From Carallia brachiata (taxonomy: Eukaryota; Streptophyta; Magnoliopsida; Malpighiales; Rhizophoraceae), in contig JADCRB010000068.1 in the NCBI GenBank assembly GCA_021464245.1, positions 2,059,297 through 2,123,296 on the forward strand: a stretch of 64,000 bases of DNA, given 5' to 3'. The translations under genes and the position numbers were made by a program. Positions 15,601-46,176 of this stretch are shown in pieces (the first letter of the stretch is position 1; every line of letters starts with the position of its first letter). The notes beneath the pieces are model-generated. The model had not been told where the DNA came from and searched no databases. It saw only the letters and a program-made list of their open reading frames with translations.

Positions 15601-17528
15601 ATCTGACAGTTCCAGCCAACAGCTCTTACTCATGGGATCCTAATTCAACTTACATTCATGAGCCTCCATACTTCAAGAACATGACCCTGGATCCTCCCGG
15701 TGCCCATGGAGTGAAGGATGCATACTGTTTGCTGAACTTTGGTGACAGTATTACAACAGATCATATTTCACCAGCAGGAAGCATTCACAAGGATAGTCCC
15801 GCTGCAAAATTCCTCCTTGAGCGACGGGTAGAACGCAAAGATTTTAACTCTTATGGAAGTCGTCGTGGGAATGATGAGGTGATGGCTAGGGGTACTTTTG
15901 CTAACATTCGACTTGTAAACAAACTTTTGAATGGGGAAGTGGGCCCAAAGACAATCCATGTTCCTACAGGCGAGAAGCTTTCAGTGTATGATGCAGCAAT
16001 GGTAAGCTATCAGTTCTACATGCTTGCTGTTTGTTCGTTTTGGCTAATTTCTTTCGTCAAAATTTTATTTTCCTGGAAATATGGTTAATTTGTAGGCTCT
16101 TTGTTAAATTAAAATGGATGCCTATGTATGTTGACTAAAACATGAATTCGTATGTTCAAATGTAAAATATGATTTCTGTTTATTGGAGTACTAGATAGAT
16201 CTTTGAATGAATATTCCAACAGGTCAATTCCATTGTTCAATTTTAGTGTACACTGATGACTTAGTTATTGTGAGTAGTTGCAATCATCTCGTGGAATGGA
16301 TTATCAATCAACCGCCACGATGTCATATGGTCGTTGTTTACCTGAAATTGTTTGCTGTAAATTATGATGCTATGAAATTTTGCATATTCTAGGGAAGAAA
16401 AATTGCTAGCCAATATTTGTTATGGCTAATTAAGTCTCACGTTTGACATACAATTTCAGAGGTACAAGACTGCCGGACAGGCTACCGTTGTTTTGGCTGG
16501 AGCCGAGTATGGAAGTGGAAGCTCCAGAGATTGGGCTGCCAAGGGCCCAATGTTATTGGTGGGTCTTTTTGTTGGATTGATTTATCACTGCCACTTTCCA
16601 AGTTTCAATGTGCTTTGTGTTTTGGTTGATCTGTATGATCTTCTCACTAAGTTGATTGGTTACAGGGAGTCAAAGCAGTGATTGCCAAAAGTTTTGAGAG
16701 AATTCATCGTAGTAACTTGGTTGGAATGGGAATTATTCCACTTTGTTTCAAGCCTGGTCAGGATGCAGACACACTAGGATTGACTGGTCATGAGCGGTTT
16801 ACCATTGATCTCCCAAGCAATATCAAGGAGATAAGGCCTGGGCAAGATGTTACCGTGACAACTGACACTGGAAAATCTTTCACTTGCACTGTGCGGTTTG
16901 ACACTGAGGTACTCACCAGCCTTTCTCTAAGCCTGTGATTGAAATTGAGATTGGTTTGTCCAAACTTTAAGTGTGTTACCGTCTATTCCCTGGAAATTAA
17001 GGAATTGAAATGAAATTCTATTACCTACAACCTGATAATTACGGCATATTGTCCTGCAGCTTATTACTATTGTCAGGAGTACGTTGGTTTTTTCCTCTTC
17101 TTGTGCATCGGAATCTGATCATGTGGTATTTGTTAGACTAGAGATCAGAGCATATCATTGATTGAGAGCTACTGATAATAAATCAAATGGATAAACGGTG
17201 AAACCGCTAAGAATCACCAGTGTGATAACATGAGTGTGGTTATTTGGTATGGGCCGTATGGCTTTTGAAGCATATTCCTCGTACCTTGTGCCATAATAAT
17301 TCAGCAAGAGTGCATGCCTGTGGGCTTTATTTCAGCAGAGGGATTCTGCTTAGTTCAGCTATTACCTACTAGGAATGCTAGTTGCCGTGCATCACCTGGT
17401 GTTGAAAACACACTTTCTCTGTCTCTAATCCATTTCAAAACTCTTAATTGCAATTGCAGGTGGAATTGGAGTACTTCAATAATGGAGGAATTCTTCCATA
17501 CGTGATCCGGAACTTGAGGAAGGAATGA
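9641..17528 (+). CDS. ACO: Aconitate hydratase (aconitase), organellar-type, 20 exons
   Basis: Aconitase interconverts citrate and isocitrate through cis-aconitate, using a [4Fe-4S] cluster. Exons: 9641-9956, 10280-10384, 10518-10678, 10773-10865, 11943-12128, 12300-12461, 12794-12938, 13017-13159, 13245-13301, 13401-13480, 13623-13698, 14042-14227, 14424-14491, 14602-14720, 14887-15008, 15328-15426, 15522-16001, 16460-16558, 16666-16908, 17460-17528. All introns are GT-AG. The exons sum to 3009 nt, giving 1002 residues with no stop. Cluster ligands Cys545 (SCTNTSN), Cys611 and Cys614 (GCTTCIG) have the 66- and 3-residue spacing of the family. Also present are GTDSHTT (311-317), [10 protein letters not shown] (781-790) and the active-site GSGSSRDW (884-891). 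Residues 1-104 are a Ser/Arg-rich extension lacking in compact forms, which suggests mitochondrial import. The core starts at Met105. Confidence 0.97.
10975..11633. mobile_element. hAT-like MITE in aconitase intron 4
   Basis: CTTATAC occurs at 10975-10981 and 11627-11633. Counting one more mismatched base, this is 7 of 8 positions of an 8-bp target duplication. Between them, 10982-11626 has inverted GC-rich ends full of ACCGGTT words (CAATGAAGTAAGAACCGG on the left; the right end reads CAAGGTTGTCAGAACCG in reverse complement) around an AT-rich core. An 8-bp duplication and termini starting CA fit hAT elements. It has no coding capacity and accounts for most of the 1077-bp intron, which is the longest in the gene. 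The insertion does not disturb either splice site. Confidence 0.65.
15052..15145 (+). repeat. Perfect 47-bp tandem duplication in intron 15
   Basis: The 47-bp unit starting CAGCTTTATCATGTTTT and ending CAGTTTTTGTA is repeated twice head-to-tail with no mismatch, at 15052-15098 and 15099-15145. Each copy contains a TTTTTTCAG string that could mimic a 3' splice site, but the frame requires the acceptor at 15326-15327. The lack of mismatches implies a recent duplication. Confidence 0.9.
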
Positions 17529-25265: not shown

Positions 25266-25638
25266 TGATGTATGACGAATAAGAAGAACAACCTAAGTCA
25301 GGAATCCACCGGACAACTAATCACTCGGGAATCCACCCGAAAAGAAACGAGAATCTACTCGAGAGAAAATTATTTGTAATCAATATTCAATTGCATAAAG
25401 TCTGAAAAATAATAAAGATTCAAACTTTATTTATAGAGTTCAACAGATAAATCCTAAATAGAAACAAATAACTGCTAACAGATAATTATGAAAATAACTG
25501 AAAAATAAACACGTAGTTAACACGTCCTAAATAAGATAGAATCTAATAACTGAATAACAAATCCTATCCTACGTGGACCGAAACTTTCGGAATTTCTTCT
25601 GGGAGAAGAAATCCCTATCAGCAACTGCAACTGCATCA
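25266..25638 (-). repeat. Chromovirus 3' LTR
   Basis: 373 bp from TGATGTATGACG to CTGCATCA, matching 31320-31692 at about 96-97% by eye. It contains paired words such as CTCGGGAATCCACCCGA. It is flanked on the outside by CGTCG and on the inside by the purine-rich tract that primes plus-strand synthesis (minus strand GGAGGGGAA). Confidence 0.95.
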
Positions 25639-25940
25639 TTCCCCTCCGGTTGAAAAGAACTCGACTCCGTCAAGGAAGACGCCAAGTAAACATCAAGCAA
25701 CTCAGGATCCATCAATCGAAGATCATCCTCAGGAACCCAAGTAGCATCAGAGGCAGGACGACCTTTCCACTGAACAAGAAAACGTCGAAATCCTCTATGA
25801 GAAGAAGCAACGTACTCATCATCCAGGATAGTCTCAATATCCTCGGCACGTGTAGCAAAAGTAGGCGCCTTTGGCACAGCTATACCTGCAGAGAGACTAG
25901 AAGGCAGCGAAGGAGGCTCGAAAGTGCCTCGGAATCTAGC
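25569..25940 (-). pseudogene. Chromodomain-containing C-terminal end of pol (frame-shifted)
   Basis: On the minus strand this segment encodes a Pro/Ser-rich linker (TFEPPSLPSSLSAG) followed by a chromodomain: IETILDDEYVASSHRG, then RRFLVQWKGRPASDATWVPE. The aromatic-rich VQWKG and TWVPE motifs are the chromodomain core, which in these elements is thought to steer integration to particular chromatin. The frame is out of register with the integrase frame that ends at 25936. The stretch that should connect them (the GPY/F module of the integrase C-terminus) is absent. The translated end runs into the 3' LTR. Confidence 0.85.
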
Positions 25941-27273
25941 GCCTAATCTCAGCATGCAAGTTATGAATGTGTGAAGCAAAATTTTCAGCAGGCTCAGAAG
26001 AACGAAGATCAGGAGGAAGGGGAACAAGGTCAACAGGTGTGTGAGGGGTATAACCATGTATAATCTCAAATGGACTCTTACCAGTAGAACGGTTAACAGA
26101 ATTATTGTAGGCAAACTCAGCTGTTGGTAAAATCAAGTCCCAATTACCTTGTTTTTTACCCACTAGACATCTAAATAAGTCTCCCAAATTTCGGTTAACT
26201 ACCTCAGTTTGACCATTTGTTTGAGGATGAAATGCAGATGAAAATTTTAAACAAGTCCCAAACAATTTCCAAAGTGTTTTCCAAAAATAACTCACAAATT
26301 TAACGTCTCTATCAGACACAATGGAAACAGGCAAACCGTGCAATCTAACAACTTCTCTGAAAAATAATTTTGCAACATGAAATGCATCAGTGGACTTATT
26401 ACATGGAATGAAATGAGCCATTTTAGAGAATCTATCCACAACCACAAGGATGCAATCATTACCACGAACTGTCCTAGGCAAACCAAGCACAAAATCCATA
26501 CTAACATCACGCCAAGGTGCATGTGGAATAGGAAGTGGTGTGTACAAACCAGTGTTATGCTTTCTAACTTTAGCAACTTGACAAGTGCGACACTGTGACA
26601 CAATTCTAGACACATCTCTCTTCAAGGAAGGCCAGTAAAACCTATCCTCAACAAGTGCAATGGTCTTATCCCTTCCTAAATGACCAGCTAATCCACTAGC
26701 ATGCATTTCCCAAACTAAAAAGTCACGGAGTGATGTACGTGGAATACACAACTTATTAGCTCTAAATAGAAATCGATCATGCACAACAAAATCAACATAG
26801 TCCCTACGATTGCCATCACAAACAGACTGAAATATAAGACCAAAATCAGGACAAGTAGGGTACTCATCATGCAATCTCTCAAAACCTACAACATGAGCAT
26901 GCAACTCTTGAAGAACACATACAACTCTACTCAGAGCATCAGCAACTTTGTTTTCTATACCAGAACAATGTTTAAGCACAAAAGAATACTCATTAAGAAA
27001 TTCAACCCATTTAGCATGCTTAGCATTTAATTTCTTCTGAGAATTCAAATAACGTAAAGCTTGATGGTCAGAAAACAAAACAAATTCCTTAGGAAGCAAA
27101 TAGTACCTCCAATGACGCAAAGATTGAACAACAGCATAAAACTCCTTATCATATGTAGAGTACCTCTGCTTCGCTTCATTGAGTTTTTCGCTGAAAAAAG
27201 CGATGGGGTGTCCTTCCTGACTCAGGACTCCTCCAATGCCAACTCCCGAAGCATCACAAGCAACTTCAAACAC
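25936..27273 (-). CDS. Chromovirus RNase H and integrase segment of pol
   Basis: A 445-codon open frame begins in RNase H (FEVACDASGVGIGGVLSQ, with catalytic Asp; TYDKEFYAVV with Glu; FSDHQALRYL with Asp; NKVADALSR with Asp). It continues into integrase. The zinc-binding region is present (GLAGHLGRDKT ... CRTCQVAK, an H-H-C-C pattern). The catalytic core shows Asp in MDFVLGLP, Asp in IVSDRDVKF and Glu in NGQTEVVN, so the DDE triad is intact. The frame ends shortly after HAEIRR, where a deletion joins it out of frame to the chromodomain linker. At the 5' side, a frameshift separates it from reverse transcriptase. Confidence 0.92.
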   Translation of the reverse strand: MFEVACDASGVGIGGVLSQEGHPIAFFSEKLNEAKQRYSTYDKEFYAVVQSLRHWRYYLLPKEFVLFSDHQALRYLNSQKKLNAKHAKWVEFLNEYSFVLKHCSGIENKVADALSRVVCVLQELHAHVVGFERLHDEYPTCPDFGLIFQSVCDGNRRDYVDFVVHDRFLFRANKLCIPRTSLRDFLVWEMHASGLAGHLGRDKTIALVEDRFYWPSLKRDVSRIVSQCRTCQVAKVRKHNTGLYTPLPIPHAPWRDVSMDFVLGLPRTVRGNDCILVVVDRFSKMAHFIPCNKSTDAFHVAKLFFREVVRLHGLPVSIVSDRDVKFVSYFWKTLWKLFGTCLKFSSAFHPQTNGQTEVVNRNLGDLFRCLVGKKQGNWDLILPTAEFAYNNSVNRSTGKSPFEIIHGYTPHTPVDLVPLPPDLRSSEPAENFASHIHNLHAEIRR

Positions 27274-27336
27274 CTTATTGAAGTCGGGATGACTCAGAAC
27301 GGGAGCTTCACTGATTTGCTTTTTATGTCTTAAAAG

Positions 27337-28517
27337 CTATGGAAGCTTTACTAGACCACTGAAATTCTCCTTTTTCAAGCAATCAGTAATAGGGGTCATA
27401 ATGGTACTGAATCCCCTAATGAACCTCCGATAGAAGGAGGCTAAACCATGGAAGCTGCGAGTTTCAGTAAGAGACTTAGGCTCAGGCCACTCTCGAATGA
27501 CTCGAACCTTCTCAGGATCCGCAGCTATACCACGAGCAGAAACAATAAATCCTAAGAACACCTCAGACTGCAAGAATGTACACTTTTTAAGGTTAGCATA
27601 CAGTTTAGCTTCTCTAAGAGTAAGAAAACTAACCGCAAGTGATCTAAGTGTTCTTTCTCGGACTTACTGTAGATAAGGATGTCGTCAAAGTAGACCACTA
27701 GAAACCGATTTATGAATGGCTTCAGAACATGAGTCATAATCCTCATAAATGTACTAGGAGCATTTGATAACCCAAAAGGCATGACTAGCCACTCATATCC
27801 ATCATGTGTCTTAAACGCAGTCTTCCACTCATCCCCAGGCCGAATGCGTATCTGATGATAGCCACTACGAAGGTCTATTTTAGAATACCAACTAGAACCA
27901 GCTAGCATATCCAACATATCCTCTAGCCTAGGAATGGGAAATCGGTACTTGATGGTGATCTTGTTTATAGCTCGACTATCAACACACATCCTCCATGACC
28001 CATCTTTCTTAGGGGTCAACAAAGCAGGAACAGCACAAGGACTCAGGCTATGTCGTACAAAACCCTTAGACAACAATTCTTCTACTTGCCTATTTAACTC
28101 TTCACGTTCCTTTGGGTTCATCCTATAGTGTGGAAGATTAGGTAACTGTGAACCAGGAACTAAGTCAATGGCATGCTGTATGTCTCGCATGGGTGGGAGC
28201 TCCTTGGGAAGGTCATCAGGCATAATATCCACAAATTCCTTGAGTAATTTATCAAAAGCAGAAGGAAGAACAGCTCGAGGTGTGCTCGAATGTGGAATAA
28301 CCTCTTTGGAAACAACAACTATCAAATAGTCATTACTCCCTAACTCCCTTTCAAAGGCCTTATGATCTAAAATGTGAAGACCTTTATTGATAGAAACAGG
28401 GGGAAGAGATTTGGGTTTCGGCCTTGTGTCCTTAACAGAGGGTTTAGCTGGGTTCAGAATGATATTTTTGCCTTCATACTTAAAGACATAAGTATTCTCC
28501 CGACCATGATTGGTCAC
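27337..28517 (-). pseudogene. Chromovirus reverse transcriptase, split by frameshifts
   Basis: The first frame (27552-28517) has the protease-RT linker followed by RT fingers and palm: [62 protein letters not shown] and the catalytic [12 protein letters not shown]. It loses frame near 27565. The second frame (27337-27573) carries the thumb/connection part ([27 protein letters not shown]). Another frame change follows near 27340 before RNase H. The catalytic Asp pair is present, so the defect is frame disruption rather than loss of active-site residues. Confidence 0.92.
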
Positions 28518-28532
28518 ATTAAGGTCATAGAG

Positions 28533-29045
28533 CTAAGGACGATCTAAGAGAATATGAGCTATATCCATGGGCAGAACATCACAATAAACCTTATCCTTAT
28601 AGTTACCTAACTGGATGGGCACTAAACACCGCTCAGTGACTGGTAAGGTGGTTTTATTTACCCAAGCTACACGGAATGGTTGCGGATGTGGTTCTGCCTT
28701 AAGGTTTAATCGTGAAAGAGCAGATTTCGCAACAACATTCATGGTACTCCCTCCATCAATAACCAACTTACAACTGCGATCTCCAGATCGAATGTAGGTG
28801 TGGAATATGCTTGTTCGTTTCCACGTATCATTGTCCACAACAGTAGACAAAACACACCTAACAACAGCACAATGCTGGTCATCATCCACAAAGTCCTCAA
28901 TGAATTCATCATCTTCACCTGAGTACTCTAAGGGATCAACAACTTGATCTTCGCTCCCTGAGAGGTCATCAGACTCCTTATCCATAATGAGAGCACGATC
29001 GGGACAACGAGAGGCAATGTGACCCTTTTTATGGCAACGAAACAC
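28533..29045 (-). pseudogene. Chromovirus zinc knuckle and aspartic protease segment
   Basis: A 170-codon open frame starts inside the gag CCHC zinc knuckle (CHKKGHIASRC). It runs through an acidic linker into the retroviral-type protease (KLVIDGGSTMNVVAK, with the catalytic Asp in the IDGG motif; IAHILLDRP near the end). The first Cys of the knuckle lies in the preceding frame, so a frameshift separates it from gag. It ends with a stop just before the reverse transcriptase frame. Confidence 0.85.
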
Positions 29046-30262
29046 TCAACGGAAGTGTTACTCGCACGAGATTCGGGAGCAGAGCGTATCGGACGAGAAG
29101 TGGAAGGAGTAGAGTGCAAAGAAGCGGAAGGATTGACAGGTTTGACTTGAGAAATGGAAGCAGAAGAAAAGGAGGTTTTGGTTGCACGCACTCCAACAGA
29201 GGGGGACGAGCGCGTGAATGAAGAGGTCTTGATGTATTTCTCAACCTCTAAAGCCTTGTGATAAGCTTCTTCCAAAGAATCAGGACCAAGTAAGAGAATC
29301 TCCTTTTGGATTTCAGGCTTGAGACCATTAACAAAACGGTTTAGAGTGAGGTAAGGATCTTCATACAATTCACATCTAAGCAGAAGCTCTTCGAATTTAG
29401 ACATGTAAGCAGTAACGCTAGAAGTCATTGCCTAAGATTTAGAAGCTGAGAATAGAGTTGACTCCTATGATAGAGGGAACATACTTAGCTTTTAGCTTCA
29501 TTTTCATGACTTCCCATAGATGATAGGAGGCTCACCTAAACGTTCAGCTCTACGAAGCTCATTCTGCCAGAATTTTCTAGCTGACCCTACCAATTTCATC
29601 TTTGCAAATTGAACACGCTCAAAATCATTCATGTCATACCATGCAAAATAATCCTCTAAACTATCAAGCCAGTCAAGAAACACTTCAGCATTCAATTCAC
29701 CATTAAATTCAGGAGCATCCAACTTGATCTTCCTAGTGATGTCATTGTGATCTGGACGTGCATGCATGTGCTGTGGCCTATGATACCTATCATGAACTCG
29801 AGTATGCACATCATCACGCAAATCATCACACACATCATCATGCAATTCATGAATAGGATGCCTACGTGTACCCCTAGGAACATGACGTGTAGGAAATGAA
29901 TCATGATAAAAATCTTCTTCATCAATATGTCCATGTAGATTTCCATCGGGGGGAAACCTAACAGTTGGTCTTGGGGTGACTAAATTCCTAAGATCCTGCG
30001 GGTGAGGCGTAGGAAAATGGGCATTGACAGAACCCTCAACATGGGTTGCCTCAATTGGCTGTCCAACCGATTCGTCTACTGGTTGTTTGTCCAAACGTTT
30101 TAAAATAGTATTCAGTTGGGTGGACAAATTAGCAAAGTCGTTTCTAAGGCTGTTCATGTCGGACTGATAGGCAGATTGTGCGGCGTGAACTTCAGCTCGA
30201 AGCTCATCTATTTTAGAAGCGGGCTTGGTAGCAGATTTGGCTGTTTCTCGGGTATTAACCAT
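28928..30262 (-). pseudogene. Chromovirus gag, two overlapping-frame pieces
   Basis: The N-terminal piece (29504-30262, 252 codons) begins MVNTRETAKSATKP and includes the retrotransposon gag core (KIKLDAPEFNGELNAEVFLD, then RKFWQNELRRAE). The second piece (28928-29428) continues the capsid-like region (VTAYMSKFEELLLRCEL, FVNGLKPEIQKEI), followed by a Ser/Thr/Pro-rich linker toward the zinc knuckle. About 75 bases between the pieces contain stops. Gag would normally form the virus-like particle that packages the RNA. This copy cannot make a full-length product. Confidence 0.88.
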
Positions 30263-35464: not shown

Positions 35465-36412
35465 TTGTAAAGCGTAAATTTCGAGCCTAAAAACAATTAA
35501 ACTCAAAAATACAAAAATAAATTACAAATAAAATTGTAAAGTAAAAGAAAATTTACGTGGGGTCGATCTCCGTAGATCCTCCGATTAGTGTTCCTTTTTT
35601 GACTCCGTCAAGGGCTGCACGAGCTTGATCCTGACAGAAATAATTTCCACTGCTTTTTCTTGAACTGGGTAGACTGAAACCGGATCTGATTTGGACGTTT
35701 TGACTACGGTTAAGAACCGCAGAGACCTGATCTGAGCCGATCTGGCTTAATTTCACCGAGGGTCGAAGAGACTTGTTCTCGGATGAGCTGCCTGGATTTT
35801 GCTGAGGGCCGTATGAGGCTTAATCCCAGCCGGATTTGTAGTAATTTGATATTTTTAACTCTATATTCTCAGAAATTCAGATCTAGAACGATCCAAGAAT
35901 ATAAATTTAAAAATAACTTTAGAAATGGAAACAGCAAATTTTTTGGGCTTTACCCCTGAAATATCTCTCAAAACGGAGTTAGGAGAGTATACTGCTAAGT
36001 AAAAGCACGTAAGAAAAGGAGAAATTTTCTTGAGAGATTTTCAAAATTTTCTTTTTCTCTCAAATTCTCTGAATTTTTCTGTTTACAGATTTGCTGAATG
36101 TGTTTTGAACTGAGGGGCATGGGCCTATTTATAGGGTTTCCCCTCTCGTGTGAAAGCACGCGTGTGAAAGGCATAAGTCGACTTTTCCGTGTGAAAGGCA
36201 TAAGTCGACTTTTCCGTGTGAAAGCACGCGTGAGAAAGGAATAAGTCGACTTTTCTGACTTTTCCGTGTGAAAGCATGCGTGAGAAAGGAATAAGTCGAC
36301 TTTTCCGTGTGAAAGCACACATGCGAAAGGAATAAGTCGACTATTGACTTTTTTTTTTTTTTTTTTTTTTTTTTTCTTCTTCTTTTTTTTTTTTTTTTTT
36401 TAATGTTTACAA
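35465..36412 (-). repeat. Tat-type element 3' LTR
   Basis: About 948 bp starting TTGTAAAG and ending TTTACAA, near-identical to 45208-46176. Read on the minus strand it begins with a long A tract. It then has five AAGTCGACTTAT-type repeats, a TATA box CTATAAATAG (36125-36134), the R/U5 part and the end. The neighbouring purine-rich AGTGGGGGCAT (minus strand, about 36413-36423) is the likely polypurine tract. Confidence 0.93.
36147..36342 (-). repeat. Promoter-proximal tandem repeats in the LTR
   Basis: Units of about 27-43 bp built from CGTGTGAAAGCACGCGTG and AGAAAGGAATAAGTCGAC are repeated about five times, each with a GTCGAC palindrome. The array ends 12 bp upstream (minus strand) of the TATA box CTATAAATAG. 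The same array sits at 45888-46082 in the other LTR, with small indels. The position suggests an enhancer array in U3. Confidence 0.85.
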
Positions 36413-36773: not shown

Positions 36774-37076
36774 TCACAGAGAGACTGACTGTAGTGATGA
36801 TTTCCAAGTCTGCTTCGACGTAAGGAGAGTAGTTGGAACTTCCCTGTACGTCGCTGCATCCAAAGAAAGATTAGGATAATTGCAGCTTCTCATCCCTCTG
36901 TGGTAGATGTGAACTAAGGAGAGTAGTTGGAACTCCATGACACCGATGGCGTTGGAGATTGAGTTTCGAGGGCTTTTAGGGATCCCTCGAAGAAGACTAC
37001 TCCTTCTTTTCTTAGCTCGTGCGCCTCCAACTTCTTGATCGAAGAACTTCCTGAGACAAGTGTAGAGACTAGCCAT
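36774..37076 (-). CDS. Unrecognised 100-codon frame in the Tat-type 3' region
   Basis: The frame starts AAAATGGC (good plant start context) and encodes MASLYTCLRKFFDQEVGG, a basic stretch (ARAKKRRSSLLRG, about residues 19-31, a possible nuclear-localisation signal) and a Ser/Leu-rich tail. No family was recognised. On the minus strand GTATATATATCC lies about 55 bases upstream, followed by a CT-rich leader, so it has a promoter-like arrangement. It contains a 19-bp direct repeat, AAGGAGAGTAGTTGGAACT on the + strand (near 36820 and 36916). It lies 298 bp downstream of the homeobox gene on the same strand. It could be a real accessory gene or chance. Confidence 0.35.
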   Translation of the reverse strand: MASLYTCLRKFFDQEVGGARAKKRRSSLLRGIPKSPRNSISNAIGVMEFQLLSLVHIYHRGMRSCNYPNLSLDAATYREVPTTLLTSKQTWKSSLQSVSL

Positions 37077-37147: not shown

Positions 37148-37184
<37 letters not shown>

Positions 37185-37374
37185 AAAAGTCAAAAAAGGT
37201 ATGCAGAATCGGATAGGGCCATCCACGTCCCTTTCCTGCATAAGAGACAAAAGAGGCAGCGGCTGACGCGTGTCACGAAAGTCGTTACCGTGTGTGGCAG
37301 AAGTCGTTGCCGTGTGCTGCGGAAGTCGTTGCCGCGTGCTGCAGAAGTCGTTGCACCTTATCTTGTCGGCCGTC

Positions 37375-37998
37375 CTAGCGGGGCCCGAGGTGCAACTCCA
37401 AGTCAAGCTCGACCTCGTCCGGTGGGCCGATGATGTTGATGTCAACGTCGACGTCGCTTTCCGGCTGGTTGATGCTGCCGGAATATTCTGGAAAGAGAGG
37501 CAAAGTTTCGCCGGAATGACTCCTTTCTGCTAGAAAATGTCCTCCTAGACTTAAGTACCTAGAAGGGATGAACCCTTGGCTGACTCCGTAAGACCACCAG
37601 GACCAGCGTGCATGCTCCCATGGGCTACGGCTTTGATGAACATACCGTGGAGAGACTATTGCGGTGGAAGAACTCGGACCTGCTTCATTTGACGGCGAAG
37701 TTGTACTGGTGGGATCTACCATCGGAACAGCAGACTGTTCTTTGGAAAAATCAGCTCTCAGTGCTGGTTTCTTCCTGCTTCTCCGATTCTGGAACCAATA
37801 AAACACATTTTTTCCTTCGATTGCCCCGAGTGGGCGCAATCGTGAGACAAGTTGGTAAATCTGAGATGCATTAGGCATAATACCTCCATTGTTGTGGAAG
37901 ACTTCCTCTAGAATTTGCAGTTGCGCCATGGTTGGTTGCCACCTTGTGCGGGGTGACCTTTCTTCTCCCTTGTCTTGAGGTTCTGCAACTGGTTTCAT
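37375..37998 (-). CDS. WUSCHEL-type (WOX) homeobox transcription factor inside a retrotransposon
   Basis: An intact intronless frame of 207 codons. Residues about 15-77 form a WOX homeodomain: RTRWQPTMAQLQILEEVF (helix 1), QIYQLVSRLR (helix 2), the lengthened loop ending IEGKN, and recognition helix NVFYWFQNRRSRKK. Residues 165-172 are TLPLFPEY, an exact WUS-box (TLxLFPxx), known in this family to recruit co-repressors. The tail has LDLELHL (198-204), an EAR-like repression motif. These motifs match the WUS clade, which controls stem-cell niches; the likely role is a DNA-binding repressor. The frame lies between integrase and the 3' LTR, on the element's coding strand. Lack of introns suggests capture through RNA. 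It is open while gag-pol is broken. Not a typical retrotransposon gene. Expression is unknown. Confidence 0.9.
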   Translation of the reverse strand: MKPVAEPQDKGEERSPRTRWQPTMAQLQILEEVFHNNGGIMPNASQIYQLVSRLRPLGAIEGKNVFYWFQNRRSRKKPALRADFSKEQSAVPMVDPTSTTSPSNEAGPSSSTAIVSPRYVHQSRSPWEHARWSWWSYGVSQGFIPSRYLSLGGHFLAERSHSGETLPLFPEYSGSINQPESDVDVDINIIGPPDEVELDLELHLGPR

Positions 37999-38085: not shown

Positions 38086-38093
38086 CTTTTATA
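38086..38093 (-). promoter_or_regulatory. TATA box of the captured WOX gene
   Basis: Minus strand AAAATATAAAAGCG gives a canonical TATAAAAG 88 bases upstream of the ATG at 37998. A CT/CA-rich leader (CTCAGCATCAGTCTC) follows at start-site distance. This suggests the homeobox gene has its own Pol II promoter rather than relying only on read-through from the LTR. Confidence 0.55.
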
Positions 38094-38390
38094 TTTTTGG
38101 GCCGTTCACAGTTTATACTCATGCGGGCCAGGAGTTGGATTGGATTTTGAACCTGGTTTCTGGACTGTGTTTAGAACTTGGAATTTTTTTTGGGTTTGGG
38201 CTTTGAATTGAATTTGGGTTGATTTGGATTTGGGTTTTTGGATCGAATGTTTGGGTTTGGACTTTTGGATTTGGATTGAGTGTTTGGGTTTTGGACTTAG
38301 TTTTTGTGTTTTCTGAATTGGGCTCAAGTGTTTGGGTTTGGATTTTTGGGTTTGGATTTTCGCTTGGACTTTCAGATCGGGACTTCCGAA

Positions 38391-38562
38391 CTTTTTTTTT
38401 TTTTTTTTTTGATTTTTTTTTCTTCTTTCTTTTTTTTTTTGATTTTTTTTTTGATTTTTTTGATTTTTTTTCTTCTCTTCTTTTTTTTTTTTTTTGGTTT
38501 TTTGATTTTTTTCTTCTCTTCTTTTTTTTTTGATTTTTTTTTTTTTGATTTTTTTTTTTTCA
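38391..38562. repeat. T-rich tract with GA interruptions
   Basis: Runs of 8-16 T separated by GA or CTTC words. On the element's sense strand it is an A-rich tract between the integrase stop and the homeobox promoter. It gives spurious Lys-rich (minus) and Phe-rich (plus) open frames. Confidence 0.9.
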
Positions 38563-38569
38563 AACATAT

Positions 38570-39586
38570 TTACACATAATATTGTTTCAGAAATTTACCA
38601 TTGATTGGGCCGATTCGGACGCCTTCTTGGTCTGACAGCATGTAAGCGTTGTGAGTGTAGGCCTCCTGCACTAAGTATGGCCCGTCCCATTTGGAAGTAA
38701 GCTTGTCACCAGGCCGATGCTTCATGTTGATGGGCCGTCGCACTGCAAGAACAAGATCCCCAACTTGAAAAGATCGAAGACGGACCCTGCGGTTGAACGT
38801 GTTGGTGAGCCGGGCTTGGTAGCACTCAAGTTGCTGTTGTGCTTCGAGCCTCCTTTCATCGAGAGCTTCTAACTCATCCAGACGTAGGCGAGCATTCTCC
38901 TCCTGTGTGAGTCCTTCCAGAACAGCCATGCGCAGGGATGGAATCTGTGTTTCCAACGGCAGTATTGCTTCGACACCGTAGACAAGTGAGTATGGCGTCG
39001 CCTGTGTTGGAGTCCGGTAAGTTGTACGATACGCCCATAATGCCTCCGGAATTCTGTCATGCCAATCTCTTTTGGATTTAGAGACTACCTTTCGCAACAG
39101 GTTGCATAAGGTCTTGTTGAATGCTTCAGCCAAGCCATTTGCTGGGGCATTGTACATGGATGACTTGTACTGCTTGAACTTGAATTTCTCGCAGAGCTTG
39201 TCAATTAAGCTGTTATAGAACTGCTTACCATTATCAGTGATGATGAATCGAGGGACTCCATAGCGATAGATCAGCTGAGTCCGGATGAAATTGGCAACAT
39301 GCTCCTTCTTTACCTCTCTAAGTGGAATGGCTTCAGCCCATTTTGAGAAGTAATCGGTTGCTGCGAGGATGTACAGGTGACCTAGGGATGACTTTGGCAA
39401 GGGCCCCACTAAGTCGAGACCCCAAGCTTCAAAGGGCCAGGATGAGACAGTTGGATGCAGTGGCTCCGGTGGTTGATGTATGTAATTCGCATGAAATTGA
39501 CAAGCTTGACAGGTTTTAGCAAACTCAATTGAATCACGTACCATAGTTGGCCAGTAGTATCCCATCCTTCTAAGTTGGAAGTGCAA
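38570..39586 (-). CDS. Tat-type integrase (DD35E) segment of pol
   Basis: A 338-codon frame, open from within the zinc-binding domain (TCQACQFHANYIHQ gives the CxxC) through the core and C-terminal domain. Catalytic residues counted from its first Met are Asp58 (GLDLVGPL), Asp118 (IITDNGKQF) and Glu154 (ANGLAEAFNK); 35 residues separate the last two. The C-terminal part has the GPY/F-like KWDGPYLVQE. The upstream His pair of the zinc finger lies in the preceding frame, so a frameshift separates it from the second RNase H. Integrase inserts the cDNA. This segment still has its active residues. Confidence 0.93.
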   Translation of the reverse strand: MHFQLRRMGYYWPTMVRDSIEFAKTCQACQFHANYIHQPPEPLHPTVSSWPFEAWGLDLVGPLPKSSLGHLYILAATDYFSKWAEAIPLREVKKEHVANFIRTQLIYRYGVPRFIITDNGKQFYNSLIDKLCEKFKFKQYKSSMYNAPANGLAEAFNKTLCNLLRKVVSKSKRDWHDRIPEALWAYRTTYRTPTQATPYSLVYGVEAILPLETQIPSLRMAVLEGLTQEENARLRLDELEALDERRLEAQQQLECYQARLTNTFNRRVRLRSFQVGDLVLAVRRPINMKHRPGDKLTSKWDGPYLVQEAYTHNAYMLSDQEGVRIGPINGKFLKQYYV

Positions 39587-39660
39587 CTTAGGCCCTGATT
39601 GATGTCCGCCACAAACACCAGAATGTGCTTCAGTGAGAGCCTGTTTTGCCTCTTCATTGG

Positions 39661-40308
39661 CTAGGCAGCGAAGTAGAACTCCATCAAAAGACCTTCGATA
39701 CAGAGCATCCTTGAGATATATGAAGCGGGGAGCTCGTCGTTGAATTTCTGTCTTATGACGACGATCTTCGGGCAGCTTTGTTGTAGGTAGTCAATGATTG
39801 GTTGACGCCAGTCCTCGTCCTCCGCGAGACGTACAGATACAGTGTTGGCTGCTGTAGTTTCTTCATCATCCTTTTGTGGCACTATCCATTTCTGGCATAC
39901 GGCAACAACTGTAGCCTGGATTTCTGACTTTGCAAGAGAAGTGGCCAGGTTAGCCAACGCGTCTGCCTGAGTGTTTTCTCGTCGAGGCACATGCTCCAAG
40001 GTGATGCTTTCAAATTCATCCATTAGCTGTCGAGCAAGTTGATGGTAAGGTGCAAGGTCCTCTTTCTTCACATCATACAATCCTGTAAGTTGGTTGATGA
40101 CGAGCTGGGAATCTCCATGGACTTCTATAGTTGGAATCTTCATATCGACAGCCATTTGAAGACCAATGATCAAAGCCTGGTATTCAGCAACATTATTTGA
40201 ACATAACTCACCGAGTATGATAGCATATGGTAGTATTTGTCGCTGAGGAGTGACAAACACTATACCGGCACCAGCACCATCACGCCTTGCTGCACCATCA
40301 AAGAACAT
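39661..40308 (-). CDS. Archaeal-type second RNase H of the Tat element
   Basis: A 215-codon frame begins MFFDGAARRDGAGAGIVF. It keeps the four catalytic acids: Asp4, Glu42 (NNVAEYQALI), Asp66 (VHGDSQLV) and Asp116 (TQADALANLA). This extra RNase H after RT-RNase H is a hallmark of the Tat lineage and takes over degradation of the RNA strand. The end of the frame (RMLCIEGLLMEFYFAA) is out of register, showing a frameshift near 39720 before the integrase. Confidence 0.92.
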   Translation of the reverse strand: MFFDGAARRDGAGAGIVFVTPQRQILPYAIILGELCSNNVAEYQALIIGLQMAVDMKIPTIEVHGDSQLVINQLTGLYDVKKEDLAPYHQLARQLMDEFESITLEHVPRRENTQADALANLATSLAKSEIQATVVAVCQKWIVPQKDDEETTAANTVSVRLAEDEDWRQPIIDYLQQSCPKIVVIRQKFNDELPASYISRMLCIEGLLMEFYFAA

Positions 40309-40357
40309 CGTCCATGGTGGCAGTGTCTCAATGTAAAAGACCTCTTCATCTGGAAGA

Positions 40358-41776
40358 TCATCTGTGAACTCCCAATCGGATGGGATAGGGTGATCTGCAA
40401 GGAAGGAAGTCTGCTAGAGCTTGTCCTTTGACTGCTTTTTGAGGCACATAGACAATGTCGTAGCTTTGTAGGATTACTGCCCACTTGGCAAGTCGTCCTG
40501 ACAAGATTGGTCTAGATAAGATATATTTGACAGGATCAGCTCTGGCAATGAGACGTACCGTGTGAGCCTGCATGTAGTGCCTCAGCTTGTCAATGGCAAA
40601 GAACAGTGCTAGACATGTCTTTTCAATGGGCGAATAACTCAGTTCCGGACCGTTTAGTGTTCTGCTCAAGTAATACAGGGCAACTTCCTTTCCCTGCTCG
40701 TTTTCCTGTGCAAGCAAGGCTCCCAAAGATCTTTCCTGCGCTGCAATGTAGAGAATCAACGACTTTCCTTGAATTGGAGCTCCCAGGACTGGTGGATTGG
40801 AAAGGTACTTCTTTATGCTCTCAAAGGCTTTGCTGCAAGCTTCGTCCCACTCGAAGTTGACATCCTTCTTCATCAACCGATGGAAAGGTTGACATCTACC
40901 AGCTAAATTGGAGATGAAACGGCGAATGTAAGCCAGCTTTCCTTGTAGACTTCGCAGCTCGTGCAGGTTTTTAGGTTCAGGCATCTTTTGAATTGCCTCA
41001 ACCTTTGACTGATCAACTTCGATTCCACGATGGCGCACCACGAACCCAAGAAACTTTCCTGATGTGACACCGAATGCGCACTTGAGAGGGTTCATTTTGA
41101 GCTGATGCCTCCGAAGTCTTTCGAACACTGTCTTGAGATCCTCGAGGTGGTCTTTGCGCTTCTTAGTCTTTACAACTTTTGGGGTGCGGAATGCTGTCAA
41201 CTCCTCGTCTTCTGGTGCCATTCTGATTTGGTTATAGCCTGAAGAACCATCCATGAAAGACAATGCTTCGTGACCCGTTGTTGCATCGACTGTGATTTCC
41301 GTTATGGGCAACGGAAAGTCATCTTTCGGGCAGGCCTTGTTAAGATCTCGAAAATCAACACATACCCTCAACTGTCCATTCTTCTTTCTTACCGGGACAA
41401 TGTTGGCAATCCACGTTGGGTAGGTGACCTCTCGGATGAAGCCGGCATTGATCAGCTTGTTCACCTCCTCCTCGATTTGTGGAATGAGTTCCGGGCGGAA
41501 CCGTCGTTGTGGCTGCTTGACAGAACGGACACTCTTCTTTACTGCTAGACGATGCACCGCAATTTTTGGGTCAAGTCCAGGCATTTCTTTGTAACTCCAT
41601 GCGAACACGTCCCTGTATTGACTTAATACCTGAACATATTCCTGCTCTTCTTCTACAGTAAGTAAAGCACTTACAAATGTAGGTCGAGGATCTTCCGGAG
41701 AGCCAAGATTGACCTCCTTGAGTTCATCAACAGTTGCTTGGCCACCGTCTTCAAGTTCCGGGGGAGCCTCCTTCAC
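40358..41776 (-). CDS. Tat-type reverse transcriptase with catalytic block deleted, plus degenerate RNase H
   Basis: A 472-codon open frame. RT fingers and palm start normally (RRFRPELIPQIEEEVNKL, RKKNGQLRVCVDFRDLNKAC, SFMDGSSGYNQIRMAPED). At TAFRTPK, near 41180, the frame jumps straight to VVKTKKRKDHLEDL. The roughly 40 residues that hold the MPFGL and YVDD motifs are missing without loss of frame. The thumb (KFLGFVVRHRGIEV, ELRSLQGKLAYIRRFI) follows. The adjoining RNase H has YIAAQERSLGALL instead of a catalytic Asp, as is usual for the vestigial first RNase H in this lineage. The product cannot be an active polymerase. Confidence 0.93.
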   Translation of the reverse strand: MKEAPPELEDGGQATVDELKEVNLGSPEDPRPTFVSALLTVEEEQEYVQVLSQYRDVFAWSYKEMPGLDPKIAVHRLAVKKSVRSVKQPQRRFRPELIPQIEEEVNKLINAGFIREVTYPTWIANIVPVRKKNGQLRVCVDFRDLNKACPKDDFPLPITEITVDATTGHEALSFMDGSSGYNQIRMAPEDEELTAFRTPKVVKTKKRKDHLEDLKTVFERLRRHQLKMNPLKCAFGVTSGKFLGFVVRHRGIEVDQSKVEAIQKMPEPKNLHELRSLQGKLAYIRRFISNLAGRCQPFHRLMKKDVNFEWDEACSKAFESIKKYLSNPPVLGAPIQGKSLILYIAAQERSLGALLAQENEQGKEVALYYLSRTLNGPELSYSPIEKTCLALFFAIDKLRHYMQAHTVRLIARADPVKYILSRPILSGRLAKWAVILQSYDIVYVPQKAVKGQALADFLPCRSPYPIRLGVHR

Positions 41777-42682
41777 TTCACCATCTGATGAGTCGGAATT
41801 AGCCTCCTCGCTAATTGTGACATGAAATGCAGAACCTCTGACTTCACCTTCTTTGTTTGACTGGATAAGCCCGTCTTGTTTGTGGTGGTGGTGATGGCAC
41901 GTGCATCAACTGTTCGGCTTCGGCTCTTTAGCGTGATCCGCACAGGTGACTTCTCCTGATAACCTAAGCCAGGTCGGGACTGTGATGTTTGAGAAGCGGC
42001 GCCATGTGTGGACGGCAGCGTACCCATTGTGCTCGGGTTTGAAAGTCATAGCCCGCCTTTGCCAAAAGCTTGTATGCATTAGGATCAAATCCTTCATGTG
42101 TTCTCCTTTCTGGAAGTGAGTGAGCCGCCTTCGACTGCCCCCGTGTATGGTTTGACGAAGCCTTTTAATGGTTTTGAAGAAAAACCGGCTCAATCTTTGG
42201 TATCGGCGAGTGTAAGTCTCCTTCAGGTTGTGCAGCTCCTTTGTTTTGGGTTGGCTATGTCCTTGCTCCTGTTTAAGATCAATACAATAAGAGAAAGGGG
42301 ATTGACCTTCTGAGCGTCGTGACTTAGGTACATAGCGTAGGACTGGAGTGGAGCTTGAAGATGCAATATCCTTCGAACGAAGTTCAGCAGGCTGTGGCAG
42401 CTTTTCATTTGTTGGAGCCTGGGGTTGGGCATTGGCAGGTTCTTCGATAGCTTTTCCCTTTTTGTGGATGCCCCCAGTCCAAGTAGCTTTTGATGGAATG
42501 ATCTCCGGATGTCTTGTCTGTCGTGTGTAGAAGACTGCATCCGCCAAATGTGATTCAGCATCATCGAATGGCTTTAAGTCAGCATTGATCTTTTGAACGC
42601 CACCATTGTAGTACTTGAAGCACTGATGCAGGCTCGAGAGCACAACTCCATTTCCATGAATCCATGGTCGTCCTAGCAACAT
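41773..42682 (-). pseudogene. Tat-type protease-RT linker region (frameshifted)
   Basis: The frame 41906-42682 resumes the end of the protease (MLLGRPWIHGNGVV) and runs into a low-complexity Ser/Pro/Gln-rich linker (SSSSTPVLRYVPKSRRSEGQ). A shorter frame (41773-42027) covers the last part. Frame changes isolate it from both the protease and RT frames. No further enzymatic domain is seen. Confidence 0.75.
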
Positions 42683-43053
42683 CTTATATTGTGTACGGCA
42701 TCAATCACGTGAAATAGAGTGCTAGAAGTGAGATTACCGATAGTTAGCTCCAAGCGAATCATCCCAATTGCTTTCTGTCCTCCTTGATTAAAGCCATGAA
42801 TCATCAAGCGGCTGTCTGATAATTCATCAATGCCGATGCCGAGCTCCTTTATGGTGGATTTTGGGATAATATTGACTGCTGAGCCATCGTCGATCAGAAT
42901 ACGTCGGACCTTCTGTTCTCTCACATAGCCTGATACATACAGCGGCCGATTGTGGGGTTTGGACCCCAGCAGGAGATCCTCATCTGAAAATGAGATAGCA
43001 GAGTAACATCCGACGTGATTTTGGGCCGTCTGTTGCTCCTGAGTTAGAATCAT
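42673..43053 (-). pseudogene. Tat-type aspartic protease segment
   Basis: A 126-codon frame with the motif VRRILIDDGSAVNIIPKST. The catalytic Asp is in the IDDGSAVN form typical of Tat elements. MIHGFNQGGQKAIG and LFHVIDA follow. A frameshift near 42680 separates it from its own C-terminus (GRPWIH). It would process Gag-Pol if it were expressed in frame. Confidence 0.85.
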
Positions 43054-43067
43054 TTGATGGCTGTGAT

Positions 43068-44935
43068 TCAGCTGAGGTCTGGAGAGTATTGCTGACTTGA
43101 TTTTGCCACTTCTGTTGATTGCAAAGCTATAAACAGCTGAGGGTTAGCGAGAAGGGTTTGGAGAGCTTCATATACCTTCTCCGTTGTCGACTTTTTGTCA
43201 CCGAGTGGCTCCTCCTTATGGTGTGTCACCTCTTCTGATGGTTTTGAAGTGATGGTGGTCTGGTTTGCCGAGGTTACGCCTTCCTGGTCCAGAATGATTT
43301 TATTCTGGCTCTTGAGCTTCATGATTAGCTCCTTCAGGACGAAACACTTCTCGGTTGGATGACTTACTATCCGGTGATATTTGCAGAATCTCGGATCGCT
43401 GACTCGATCCTTTTCATTCGGCCGCTTGCACTCTGGGAGTTCGATCAGCTTTGCCTCCAAGAGTTGTTCAAGAATGTCGGGGACGTCTGAGTCGGGGAAT
43501 GGATACTGCTTCTGCTCCAACTCTCGCAATGTCACCTTCCGCCTTTCCTGTTGTTTTGGCTGAGTTATTTGGGTCGGAGGATTTACCTTAACTTTGGCGC
43601 CCACTTTTACTGGTGCGGCTTCAACAGTCATCACTTCTTTTCCTTTTCCGAAACTGTTGGGTTTCTTAATCTCCCTTCTGCCCCCTTGCTGGTCCAACTG
43701 GATGGGAACCATGCCTCCAGAGGTCTGGATGCTTATCTCCATATCATGTGCGCGGGTCGCCAATTCTTCGAAGGTTCGGGGTTTGACACCCTGCAGGATG
43801 TATAACAGCTCCCAATGCATTCCTTGGATGCACATCTCCACGGCAGAAGTCTCCGTCAGGCGATCTTTGCAGTCCAAGCTGAGGGCACGCCATCTGTTGA
43901 TGTATTCGACAACGGGCTCTCCTTTTCTTTGTTTGGTGCTGGTAAGCTCCATCATACTTACCGTCCTTCGAGTGCTGAAAAATCTGTTGAGGAACTCTCG
44001 TTGTAGCTGTTCCCAACTGTCGATCGATTCTGGTTCAAGATTTATGAACCAGGTAAAGCGGTCTCCCTGAGTGAACGAACAAACTGCTTCACCAAGAGAT
44101 CTCCGTAAGTCCCTGCGTTGTTGCAGGTTTCAACGTGGGCGATGTGCTGTTTGGGCGCCTCGTCCGTCGAATGTTGAAATTTGGGCGGCTGGTAGCCCAA
44201 GGGCATGTTGAGACTTTCGATCCGTCTGGTGTACGGTTTGACGTACATCTGTGATCCTTGGAAGGATGTAGCTTGTTGCAGTCGGATCGTTGGCTATCAT
44301 TTCCTGCAATTGTTGAACAGATAGCGAAGCTACAGAATTTGAGGGTGGTAGCTGTGTAGAACTACCTGGTCGCTTTTCTGCAGGGAAGACGTCGGCAGGT
44401 GTGGCTTCTGGAGTGAAACCGGGTGGATATGGTTGCTCCTCGCGGATCTCGGGATCAATTTGGATTGGGGTTTTCCTTTGAGAGCGGCGATCTGTTGATC
44501 TTTTTCCTCACACTCTGATCAGCTGCAAAATTTTGTTCTCCAAGTCTGAAATTCTTTCTTCTGTACTGGTTGTGTTGGTCATCATACGGCAACAGATGAG
44601 GCTCCGCGAAAGACTGGGGGAGAAAGCTCTTCTGATTCTTCTGTGTGGATTTCTACAGAATGAGTTGGATTCTGTTGAGCAGACTTCGTTGTGTTGCCCC
44701 CGACTTCGATCGGGGTGGGTGATCGACTCCTCCATGCGGCAAGAGAGTCAGGGGAGAGATCCTGTTGTGCGAGCTGTGGACTCTCCATTTCGATATTTTT
44801 TTGGGTTTGGACGGCAAGAAATTGTGTCCGTCCCCGGGTTTCTGGACCTGCGTACCCAGGTAGGGTAGTTGATGCAGGCAATGGAGCCGTTGCCTTCTTT
44901 TTTGTGGCAGCAGTTGTACTCCTTTTCGGTGCCAT
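43068..44935 (-). pseudogene. Tat-type gag, broken into several frames
   Basis: Pieces in order on the minus strand. N-terminus at 44582-44935 (MAPKRSTTAATKKKA, a long Pro/Ser/Thr-rich head). A coiled segment in another frame (EERISDLENKILQL, about 44510-44560). A capsid start at 44042-44248 (RRIESLNMPLGYQPPKFQ, CNNAGTYGDLLVKQFV). The main capsid piece at 43068-43955 (MMELTSTKQRKGEPVVEYIN, RTFEELATRAHDMEI, CKYHRIVSHPTEKCFVLK zinc-knuckle-like CxxH/C). At least three frameshifts prevent a full protein. Confidence 0.88.
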
Positions 44936-44959
44936 TTAATGTGCTGAACACCTGTAAAT

Positions 44960-45157
44960 TTTTTTTTTTTTTTTTTTTTACTTTTTTTTTACTTTTTTAC
45001 TTTTTTTTTTTTTTTTTTTACTTTTTTACTTTTTACTTTTTACTTTTTACTTTTTTTTTTCTTTTTACTTTTTTTTTTTTTTTCTTTTTTTTCTTTTTTT
45101 TTTTCTTTTTTTTTTTTCTCTCGGCTCCCCTTTTACCTCTTTTTTTTTTTTTTTTTT
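44960..45157. repeat. T-rich tract in the Tat-type leader
   Basis: Almost 200 bases of T-runs separated by AC or C words, A-rich on the sense strand, between the PBS and the gag start. It produces spurious Phe-rich frames. Its length is likely unreliable. Confidence 0.9.
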
Positions 45158-45184
45158 AAGGAACAAGAGATGGGAGGTGAAGAT

Positions 45185-45207: not shown

Positions 45208-46085
45208 TTGTAAAGCGTAAATTTCGAGCCTAAAACAATTAAACTCGAAAATACAAAAATAAATTACAAATAAAATTGTAAAGTAAAAGAAAATTTACGT
45301 GGGGTCGATCTCCGTAGATCCTCCGATTAGTGTTCCTTTTTTGACTCCGTCAAGGGCTGCACGAGCTTGATCTGACAGAAATAATTCCACTGCTTTTTCT
45401 TGAACTGGGTAGACTGAAACCGGATCTGATTTGGACGTTTTGACTACGGTTAAGAACCGCAGAGACCTGATCTGAGCCGATCTGGCTTAATTTCACCGAG
45501 GGTCGAAGAGACTTGTTCTCGGATGAGCTGCCTGGATTTTGCTGAGGGCCGTATGAGGCTTAATCCCAGCCGGATTTGTAGTAATTTGATATTTTTAACT
45601 CTATATTCTCAGAAATTCAGATCTAGAACGATCCAAGAATATAAATTTAAAAATAACTTTAGAAATGGAAACAGCAAATTTTTTGGGCTTTACCCCTGAA
45701 ATATCTCTCAAAACGGAGTTAGGAGAGTATACTGCTAAGTAAAAGCACGTAAGAAAAGGAGAAATTTTCTTGAGAGATTTTCAAAATTTTCTTTTTCTCT
45801 CAAATTCTCTGAATTTTTCTGTTTACAGATTTGCTGAATGTGTTTTGAACTGAGGGGCATGGGCCTATTTATAGGGTTTCCCCTCTCGTGTGAAAGCACG
45901 CGTGTGAAAGGCATAAGTCGACTTTTCCGTGTGAAAGGCATAAGTCGACTTTTCCGTGTGAAAGCACGCGTGAGAAAGGAATAAGTCGACTTTTCTACGA
46001 CTTTTCCGTGAAAGCATGCGTGAGAAAGGAATAAGTCGACTTTTCCGTGTGAAAGCACACATGCGAAAGGAATAAGTCGACTATT

Positions 46086-46119
<34 letters not shown>

Positions 46120-46176
46120 CTTTTCTTTTTTTTTTCTTCTTCTTCTTTTTTTTTTTTTTTTTTTTAATGTTTACAG
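45208..46176 (-). repeat. Tat-type element 5' LTR
   Basis: About 969 bp, TTGTAAAG to TTTACAG. The final G differs from the CAA end of the other LTR. It contains the GTCGAC repeat array (45888-46082) next to the TATA box CTATAAATAG (45865-45874), the presumed promoter of the genomic RNA. It is followed by the TCTCA flank. Confidence 0.93.

Follow-up and report, generated by a model that had tools for sequence, protein, structure and literature searches.

A WUSCHEL-like homeobox gene carried by a high-copy Tat-type LTR retrotransposon family of Carallia brachiata

Introduction

WUSCHEL (WUS) is the plant master switch for stem cells, and a WUS-like homeobox frame within a retrotransposon raises the question of where it came from and what, if anything, it does for the element. 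That Tat elements can carry accessory genes between pol and the 3' LTR is no new insight, though most of these genes are of obscure function and origin. Animal retroviruses carry host transcription factors as oncogenes, and these captures are recent and usually single. The frame considered here lies in a stretch of 64,000 nucleotides (the window), and the genome searched is the 337.5-Mb assembly of 164 contigs of which the window is one stretch. The original prediction, made from the letters of the window, placed a homeobox gene inside a Tat-type LTR retrotransposon. This assignment is borne out by a Pfam Homeodomain match, a pair of LTRs, flanking TCTCA repeats and an additional RNase H.

Anatomy and class of the host element

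The element is 10,710 bases long, is read on the minus strand between 46175 and 35466, and is bounded by LTRs of 967 bases (5' LTR, 45209..46175) and 946 bases (3' LTR, 35466..36411), which were delimited by repeat search and LTR alignment and are likewise read on the minus strand. The two LTRs align over 935 columns at 98.8% identity, the differences being 2 mismatches and 7 gap openings, and therefore the insertion in the window is young. TCTCA repeats are found at both element ends, offset by one base. The LTRs contain tandem repeats with a unit spacing of 27-50 bases (36120-36345 and 45860-46085), possibly enhancer repeats.

All internal features are read from the minus strand. The first ORF after the 5' LTR in the ORF list (44582..44935) is probably the start of gag, as judged by position only, and is followed by a gag-like segment (43068..43955) and a protease-like segment (42673..43053), both recognized through Pfam matches below cut-off. 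Pfam further identifies reverse transcriptase and RNase H (40358..41776), an additional RNase H between RNase H and integrase (RVT_3, 88 bits; 39661..40308), and the integrase (38570..39790), which has an open frame at 38573-39790 and a listed ORF at 38570-39586. According to the accessible part of an earlier study (PMC6317226), the additional RNase H is a hallmark of Tat elements, and it follows RNase H and precedes integrase in the Ogre and Retand elements of angiosperms. The window element has this domain between its RT-RNase H and its integrase and, judged by domain order, is built like Ogre and Retand of the Tat clade (Ty3/gypsy). We do not file it under Retand, since its POL-3'LTR gap of 2,158 bases falls below the range of 2,933-6,566 bp, with an antisense TRP28 ORF, that the available text of PMC11963269 gives for Retand, and since the two antisense ORFs in the gap (109 and 104 aa) yielded no Pfam match up to E 1 and no TRP28.

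No YxDD motif occurs in any minus frame of 40300-43100, and the reverse transcriptase of the window copy is defective. A relative (P0213) has YVDD immediately ahead of the aligned RT part, and in some other family members the pol frames are open for about 1,000 codons. The window copy was either mobilised by help in trans, or it lost the YxDD stretch afterwards.

A second Ty3/gypsy element with chromovirus-like gag, RT and integrase ORFs, recognized by eye, adjoins the Tat element (25569-30262, minus strand). Elsewhere in the window are exon-like pieces of a host aconitase gene (11742-16088; Pfam for 11742-12134, the remainder by eye).

Make-up of the WUSCHEL-like frame

The homeobox frame extends over 37375..37998 on the minus strand and encodes 207 aa without an intron, in sense orientation relative to gag-pol; it is documented by the ORF list, Pfam, structure and protein searches and the genome copies. 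The same stretch read from the plus strand contains several stops and is not open. A 207-codon frame on the coding strand of the element, between integrase and 3' LTR, had been predicted, and this is what is found. Pfam scores the homeodomain at 47 bits against a cut-off of 22.9, and the nearest solved structure is the Arabidopsis WUSCHEL homeodomain 6ry3 (69.6 bits), followed by STENOFOLIA (61.8 bits). The predicted WOX homeodomain with the recognition helix NVFYWFQNRRSRKK is present in the 207-aa protein.

Alignment and a structure model place the homeodomain at residues 17-81 (37756..37950, minus strand). It retains the WUS contact residues R19, W20, Q70, N71 and R75 as well as the dimer residues I47 and F66; R19, Q70, N71 and R75 of the element protein correspond to R38, Q89, N90 and R94 in the WUS numbering of PMC7203112. 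The model, built from 28 aligned sequences, has confident helices in the homeodomain only (pLDDT 93-95 at residues 21-70, mean of 61.6 for the whole 207-aa model), and its best structural match is the WUS homeodomain chain on TGAA DNA.

Two motifs of the window copy follow the homeodomain in the same order as in WUSCHEL, namely the WUS-box core TLPLFP (residues 165-170; 37489..37506, minus strand) and the EAR-like LDLELHL (residues 198-204; 37387..37407, minus strand), the latter exactly as predicted. The claim of an exact WUS-box TLPLFPEY stands for the core, which is common to all of the 120 WUS-like proteins fetched (the best 120 of 419 protein matches, most of them named WUS or WUS-looking), but not for the two following residues, EY, which are unlike the common MH. 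When the C-terminal part was shuffled, TLPLFP arose in 1 of 200,000 shuffles.

Just below the WOX stop codon a 22-base tandem repeat is present in three copies (37264-37351). Long tracts that are A-rich on the element strand lie between the element modules (37152-37190, 38397-38560 and 44950-45170); the tract below WOX could be the old poly(A) tail of a captured message, or reflect the element's own purine-rich style.

Occurrence throughout the family

With the WOX protein as query, the assembly yielded 2317 first-look candidates. The best 150 were scored, all of them at 85-100% amino acid identity; 35 have stops in the match and 115 have none. The integrase served as a second query to avoid picking copies through WOX, and produced 3408 candidates, of which 119 were scored, giving 120 rows at 89-100% identity; a distant integrase query (Iris, P0199) ranked the same family top. 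One split place (C32), represented by two rows, was omitted, and the remaining 118 integrase places were compared with the WOX list by their coordinates; at 29 of them a listed WOX lies 384-621 bases downstream of integrase. Among the 89 places without a listed WOX, 14 were fetched: all 14 have a WOX, which is frameshifted in 10. The gene is also present at two further places of the 89 (L075, L077) and at 10 older, decayed places off the list, which are 78-89% identical to the window copy at the DNA level. WOX is hence found downstream of integrase in 55 of 55 examined places (45 of the 118 listed and 10 older ones), which answers the objection, raised with the original prediction, that other family members might lack the homeobox. 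WOX is an old, family-wide accessory gene rather than a single recent capture, and since each examined member carries it, a misassembly or a chance host gene is very unlikely.

A second subfamily (L061, L062, L063, L065, L067) has a changed homeodomain, including positions of the recognition helix, and ILPLFP replaces TLPLFP wherever the WUS-box is readable. In these copies the homeodomain and the following stretch are strongly different and the flanks alike, a pattern reminiscent of a segment exchange among lineages of the element. A seemingly separate group of "divergent" WOX places was dissolved: these belong to the same family, are mostly frameshifted or partial, and have integrase upstream in 12 of 12 cases. 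At L071 a frame resembling the gag of the neighbouring chromovirus-type element appears, by eye, shortly after LTR sequence, suggesting nested insertions. Searches of viral and prokaryote collections for related loci confirmed none.

Relation to the host WUS genes

The host genome contains two WUS-like genes (L029, L030) and seven other WOX homeodomains (L031-L037). In both WUS-like genes homeodomain and WUS-box sit in separate open pieces, and therefore these genes are apparently split by introns. The element frame is continuous, as is characteristic of the intronless copies left by transduced genes.

The element homeodomain is 46-52% identical to the 120 WUS-like proteins and 46% and 50% identical to the two host WUS, while the 120 homeodomains are at least 73% identical to one another, with a median of 92.5%. 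At the end of the helix the element has RRSRK in place of the HKARE of WUS. An extra residue at position 54, Tyr, is described as WUS-specific within the WOX family in the part of PMC7203112 that is available. This one-residue insertion at the end of helix 1 is present in the 3 element copies and the 15 WUS sequences aligned and missing from the seven other host WOX; among the host WOX homeodomains it is limited to L029 and L030, and the residue inserted in the element is His or Tyr.

In a homeodomain tree the element copies share one branch of 1.06 substitutions per site (100/100), whose attachment is weakly supported, and in a tree of the 120 WUS-like proteins the element again sits on a long branch with a weakly supported attachment. 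Podostemaceae WUS form a group with those of the host (bootstrap 84), and of the 120 proteins a Turnera one matches L030 best. A host PADRE-type gene finds its best match in Erythroxylum, at 36% only. Podostemaceae, Turnera and Erythroxylum all belong to the Malpighiales, the order to which these affinities assign the host, too, with moderate confidence.

Given the WUS-specific insertion, the identity of about 50% and the branch of 1.06, the captured gene was most likely a WUS gene, and its separation from WUS was either old or fast. The prediction that the element had captured a developmental regulator holds in that the gene is carried family-wide, but with a homeodomain identity of about 50% this is no recent capture of an ordinary WUS.

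A putative internal promoter

Two TATAAA boxes (38117-38112 and 38093-38088, minus strand; together 38088..38117) lie upstream of the frame and form, from the sequence and its copies, a putative internal WOX promoter with a leader that runs on to the ATG at 37998. Both boxes are located inside the 162 bases above the ATG, a number that none of 300 shuffled versions of the 422 upstream bases reached, and both are intact at 58 of 58 scorable places. In the upstream comparison (65 rows representing 59 places) 12 of 157 hexamers are intact everywhere, and 10 of these 12 overlap the TATAAA boxes. The A/T sites outside the boxes average a conservation of 0.959, and only 1 of 11 other mixed A/T hexamers upstream is intact in all copies; the invariance of the boxes is therefore not an A/T effect. 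Another TATAAA in the POL-3'LTR gap, at 36673, is intact in 71% of 31.

The motifs TGAATGAA, TAATGG, CACGTG and TCACGTGA are not enriched in LTR, promoter or gap. CACGCGTG is present twice in the LTR, and we know of no WUS site of this sequence. A role of the WOX protein directed at the LTR is not supported by the known sites.

Selection and residue conservation

dN/dS, residue, TATA and frameshift counts refer to 59 distinct places, with transitions weighted (kappa 4.1). An uncorrected dN/dS of 0.49-0.57 was replaced by this transition-weighted version because shifted frames also dropped below 1. In the samples for the uncorrected value 2 of 39 rows were dropped (frameshift or stop); elsewhere copies with more than 40% gaps relative to the window copy were left out. 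Codons touched by indels were masked, and none was filled in.

For 29 disjoint pairs dN/dS is 0.76 for the whole WOX frame (p 0.003) and 0.48 for the homeodomain (p 5.1e-5), and 0.87 outside the homeodomain, which is not significant (p 0.2); many of these copies were picked for their similarity at the protein level, and dN/dS is biased downwards as a result. The 22 copies ascertained through integrase form a fairer sample, although 14 of the 22 were selected for lacking a listed WOX, a choice that pushes dN/dS up; the 11 integrase-ascertained pairs give 0.76 for the whole frame (p 0.028), 0.59 for the homeodomain (p 0.028) and 0.83 for the rest (p 0.18). Shifted-frame controls amount to 0.82 and 1.92 for the homeodomain and to 0.93 and 1.37 for the whole frame. 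The integrase has a dN/dS of 0.14 (14 pairs, mostly copies found through WOX). Hence, the homeodomain is under purifying selection that is weaker than that on integrase, and the remainder of the WOX frame evolves almost neutrally over the time covered by these copies, many of them dead. A dN/dS near 1 had been named as counter-evidence to the original prediction: whole frame and homeodomain lie below 1, and the part outside the homeodomain does not differ from it significantly. That the window frame is open while gag and pol are frameshifted, a further point of the prediction, is true but by itself carries little weight because of the short frame and the recent insertion; what counts is the evidence of the other copies, and there WOX is frameshifted at 22 of 59 places.

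A 100-codon frame downstream of WOX (36774..37076, minus strand, from the ORF list) was considered as a second gene and rejected, with a dN/dS of about 1.1 (1.13) and no family match. Its sequence is conserved, and given the dN/dS it is probably non-coding.

At the level of residues, Q70 and N71 are kept at 59/59 places, I47 at 58/58, R19 and W20 at 58/59, R75 at 57/58 and F66 at 54/59. In the WUS-box L166 (58/58) and L168 (59/59) are invariant and T165 is kept at 49/59 only; L200 of the EAR motif is kept at 59/59. Mean conservation over the 59 places is 0.964 for the homeodomain, 0.901 for the linker, 0.946 for the WUS-box and 0.918 for the EAR region.

Neutral simulations were run from the split from WUS at the observed identity. 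All eight contact and core residues, 8/8 of which the element keeps, survived in 0.18% of the simulations, a 12-residue identical run in 0.28% and a 207-codon frame free of stops in 0.26%; in the homeodomain, absence of stops, the run and the contacts coincided in 0 of 20,000. The homeodomain scores 82.8 bits compared to 63.4 (sd 5.8) for simulated sequences, and 0 of 1000 simulations scored higher. The constraint since the WUS split that these simulations reveal may have acted either in a host gene or in the element.

What the gene may do for the element

Probably, WOX is an accessory gene fixed in a large Tat-type Ty3/gypsy family, whose product is a TOPLESS-recruiting nuclear repressor expressed from its own promoter that represses host genes in favour of transmission. 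The observations underlying this explanation are the anatomy of the element, the presence of WOX in every examined copy, its WUS-like make-up, the constrained homeodomain and the strictly kept TATA boxes. A plant's WUSCHEL coding sequence, free of introns, would have entered the ancestor of the family in the sense direction, in the space that separates pol from the 3' LTR. The gene would be transcribed from its own internal promoter, and the small WOX protein would enter the nucleus and bind DNA via its WUS-type homeodomain. WUS-box and EAR motif would recruit co-repressors of the TOPLESS type and thus repress host genes, most simply differentiation or surveillance genes within reach of WUS-like factors, favouring cells or states in which a new insertion reaches the next generation. 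A nuclear, DNA-binding and TOPLESS-recruiting role is suggested by the retention of the base-contact and dimer residues, the WUS-box leucines and the EAR leucine. Repression alone may be too simple, as the accessible portion of PMC7203112 reports WUS as an activator too.

The available text of PMC7560203 describes descendants of shoot stem cells as the progenitors of germ cells, and an element that favours or alters the stem-cell state would therefore gain transmission. It is conceivable, if doubtful, that WOX driven by the internal promoter pushes host cells towards a meristem-like state, or dampens surveillance there, so that insertions enter the gamete lineage. If this were true, the LONELY GUY-like domains seen in other plant Gypsy elements (accessible part of PMC9289625) would represent a second strike at the cytokinin-WUS circuit.

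Several observations run against the repressor explanation. Selection outside the homeodomain is weak, as evident from values of 0.76 for the whole frame and 0.87 for its non-homeodomain part versus 0.14 for integrase. Moreover, the second subfamily has helix changes and ILPLFP, T165 and F66 are kept at only 49/59 and 54/59 places, 22/59 places are frameshifted, the LTR is not enriched in known WUS sites, and the window copy is itself defective, with no YxDD in its reverse transcriptase. The selection values, together with the frameshifts at 22/59 places and in 10/14 integrase-ascertained copies without a listed WOX, would also suit a gene that was picked up a single time, was functional for a while or not at all, and is now simply carried along; the open frames of young copies would then reflect nothing but youth, and the homeodomain would show residual constraint. 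We consider such a passenger unlikely: the homeodomain dN/dS is 0.48 (p 5.1e-5) and still 0.59 in integrase-ascertained copies (p 0.028), the two TATA boxes are invariant at 58/58 places against 0.959 for the other upstream A/T sites, WOX is retained at 55/55 examined integrase places, and the homeodomain bit score exceeds all 1000 neutral simulations. Constraint in the homeodomain and fast evolution elsewhere, along with the preservation of I47 (58/58) and F66 (54/59), could also denote a decoy or dominant-negative protein, which, with its dimer and DNA contacts intact, would titrate partners or sites of host WUS without repression of its own; yet a pure decoy would have no need of the WUS-box leucines (58/58 and 59/59) and the EAR L200 (59/59), all of which are kept, and we deem it quite improbable.

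Hardly any credence is due to an action at the RNA level, by which the WOX stretch would yield small RNAs or decoys against host WUS transcripts. The WOX sequence is sense, high-copy and WUS-like, but it has no exact stretch of at least 16 bases in common with either fetched host WUS locus, and its homeodomain is constrained at the protein level. The notion that an unusual WUS paralogue of the host was captured recently, or that a host gene was misassembled into the element, draws on the existence of a host WOX gene family and is just as remote, considering the occurrence of WOX at 55/55 examined integrase places and the LTR pair with flanking repeats in place. Furthermore, the two host WUS genes are distant in sequence and in separate open pieces, and no intermediate host paralogue was conspicuous among the 147 scored rows, which were checked in part. 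Notwithstanding the alternatives, the repressor explanation is the one we favour, and the data suggest that a retrotransposon uses a stem-cell regulator for its own ends.

Comparison with known systems

The window element resembles Grande of maize, RIRE2 of rice and Retand in belonging to the Tat clade and in bearing an accessory gene downstream of pol, ahead of the 3' LTR. However, the accessory genes of these elements are antisense to gag-pol and lack clear protein similarity, whereas the gene described here is sense and a recognisable host transcription factor. For Grande gene23, the available text of PMC7264820 describes a nuclear protein with its own promoter. The accessible part of PMC11963269 covers 63 Retand clusters and states that known domains are not encoded by any sense ORF located between pol and the 3' LTR.

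Tat/Ogre-like elements of Phalaenopsis carry a functional AlkB m6A demethylase, according to the available part of PMC9289625, and thus likewise represent a high-copy Tat-type family in which a host-derived working protein is fixed; AlkB is, however, an RNA-modifying enzyme and no developmental transcription factor. The same part of this survey of 121 angiosperm genomes lists PMD, G-patch, AIR1, DUF1409, YgdH (LONELY GUY type), L26, B3, ArgoL2 and 2-ODD among 15 extra domains. Similar to the WOX of the window, YgdH and B3 (cytokinin activation and plant transcription factors, respectively) occur inside plant Gypsy consensuses, but these cases are domain matches only (PMC9289625, accessible part). 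The terms "homeo", "WUS" and "WOX" are absent from the accessible main text of this survey, and "WUS" and "homeo" from the available part of a review of plant transposon gene capture (PMC13317346). Among the open-access papers listed by our searches, none describes an LTR retrotransposon with a homeodomain or WOX gene; further cases may be found in supplements and subscription papers.

Like Bs1 of maize and other transduced genes, the window WOX is a host coding sequence moved by an LTR element in sense orientation. Transduced host genes sit in one or a few copies, as the accessible text of PMC7264820 puts it; the window WOX, in contrast, is old and present in every examined copy (55/55). With WUSCHEL the element protein shares the homeodomain with the WUS-type insertion, the WUS-box and the EAR-like motif in the same order, and it differs by a homeodomain identity of about 50%, by being intronless and element-encoded, and by RRSRK for HKARE. 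As in the oncogenic animal retroviruses, a reverse-transcribing element carries a transcription factor of growth control, but here it does so family-wide and in inherited form.

Significance

As far as the sequences tell, a WUSCHEL-derived accessory gene with a conserved putative internal promoter is really fixed in a high-copy Tat family, and no fewer than 150 places in this one plant genome have a WUSCHEL-like frame or remains of one. The accessory gene is recognisable as a transcription factor for which plant studies have thoroughly covered the class of DNA targets, the partner and the cellular role, and thus what a plant retrotransposon gains from an extra gene becomes directly testable. 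The finding bears on the access of elements to the plant germline, on the control of WUS-like activity and on the annotation of the WOX family.
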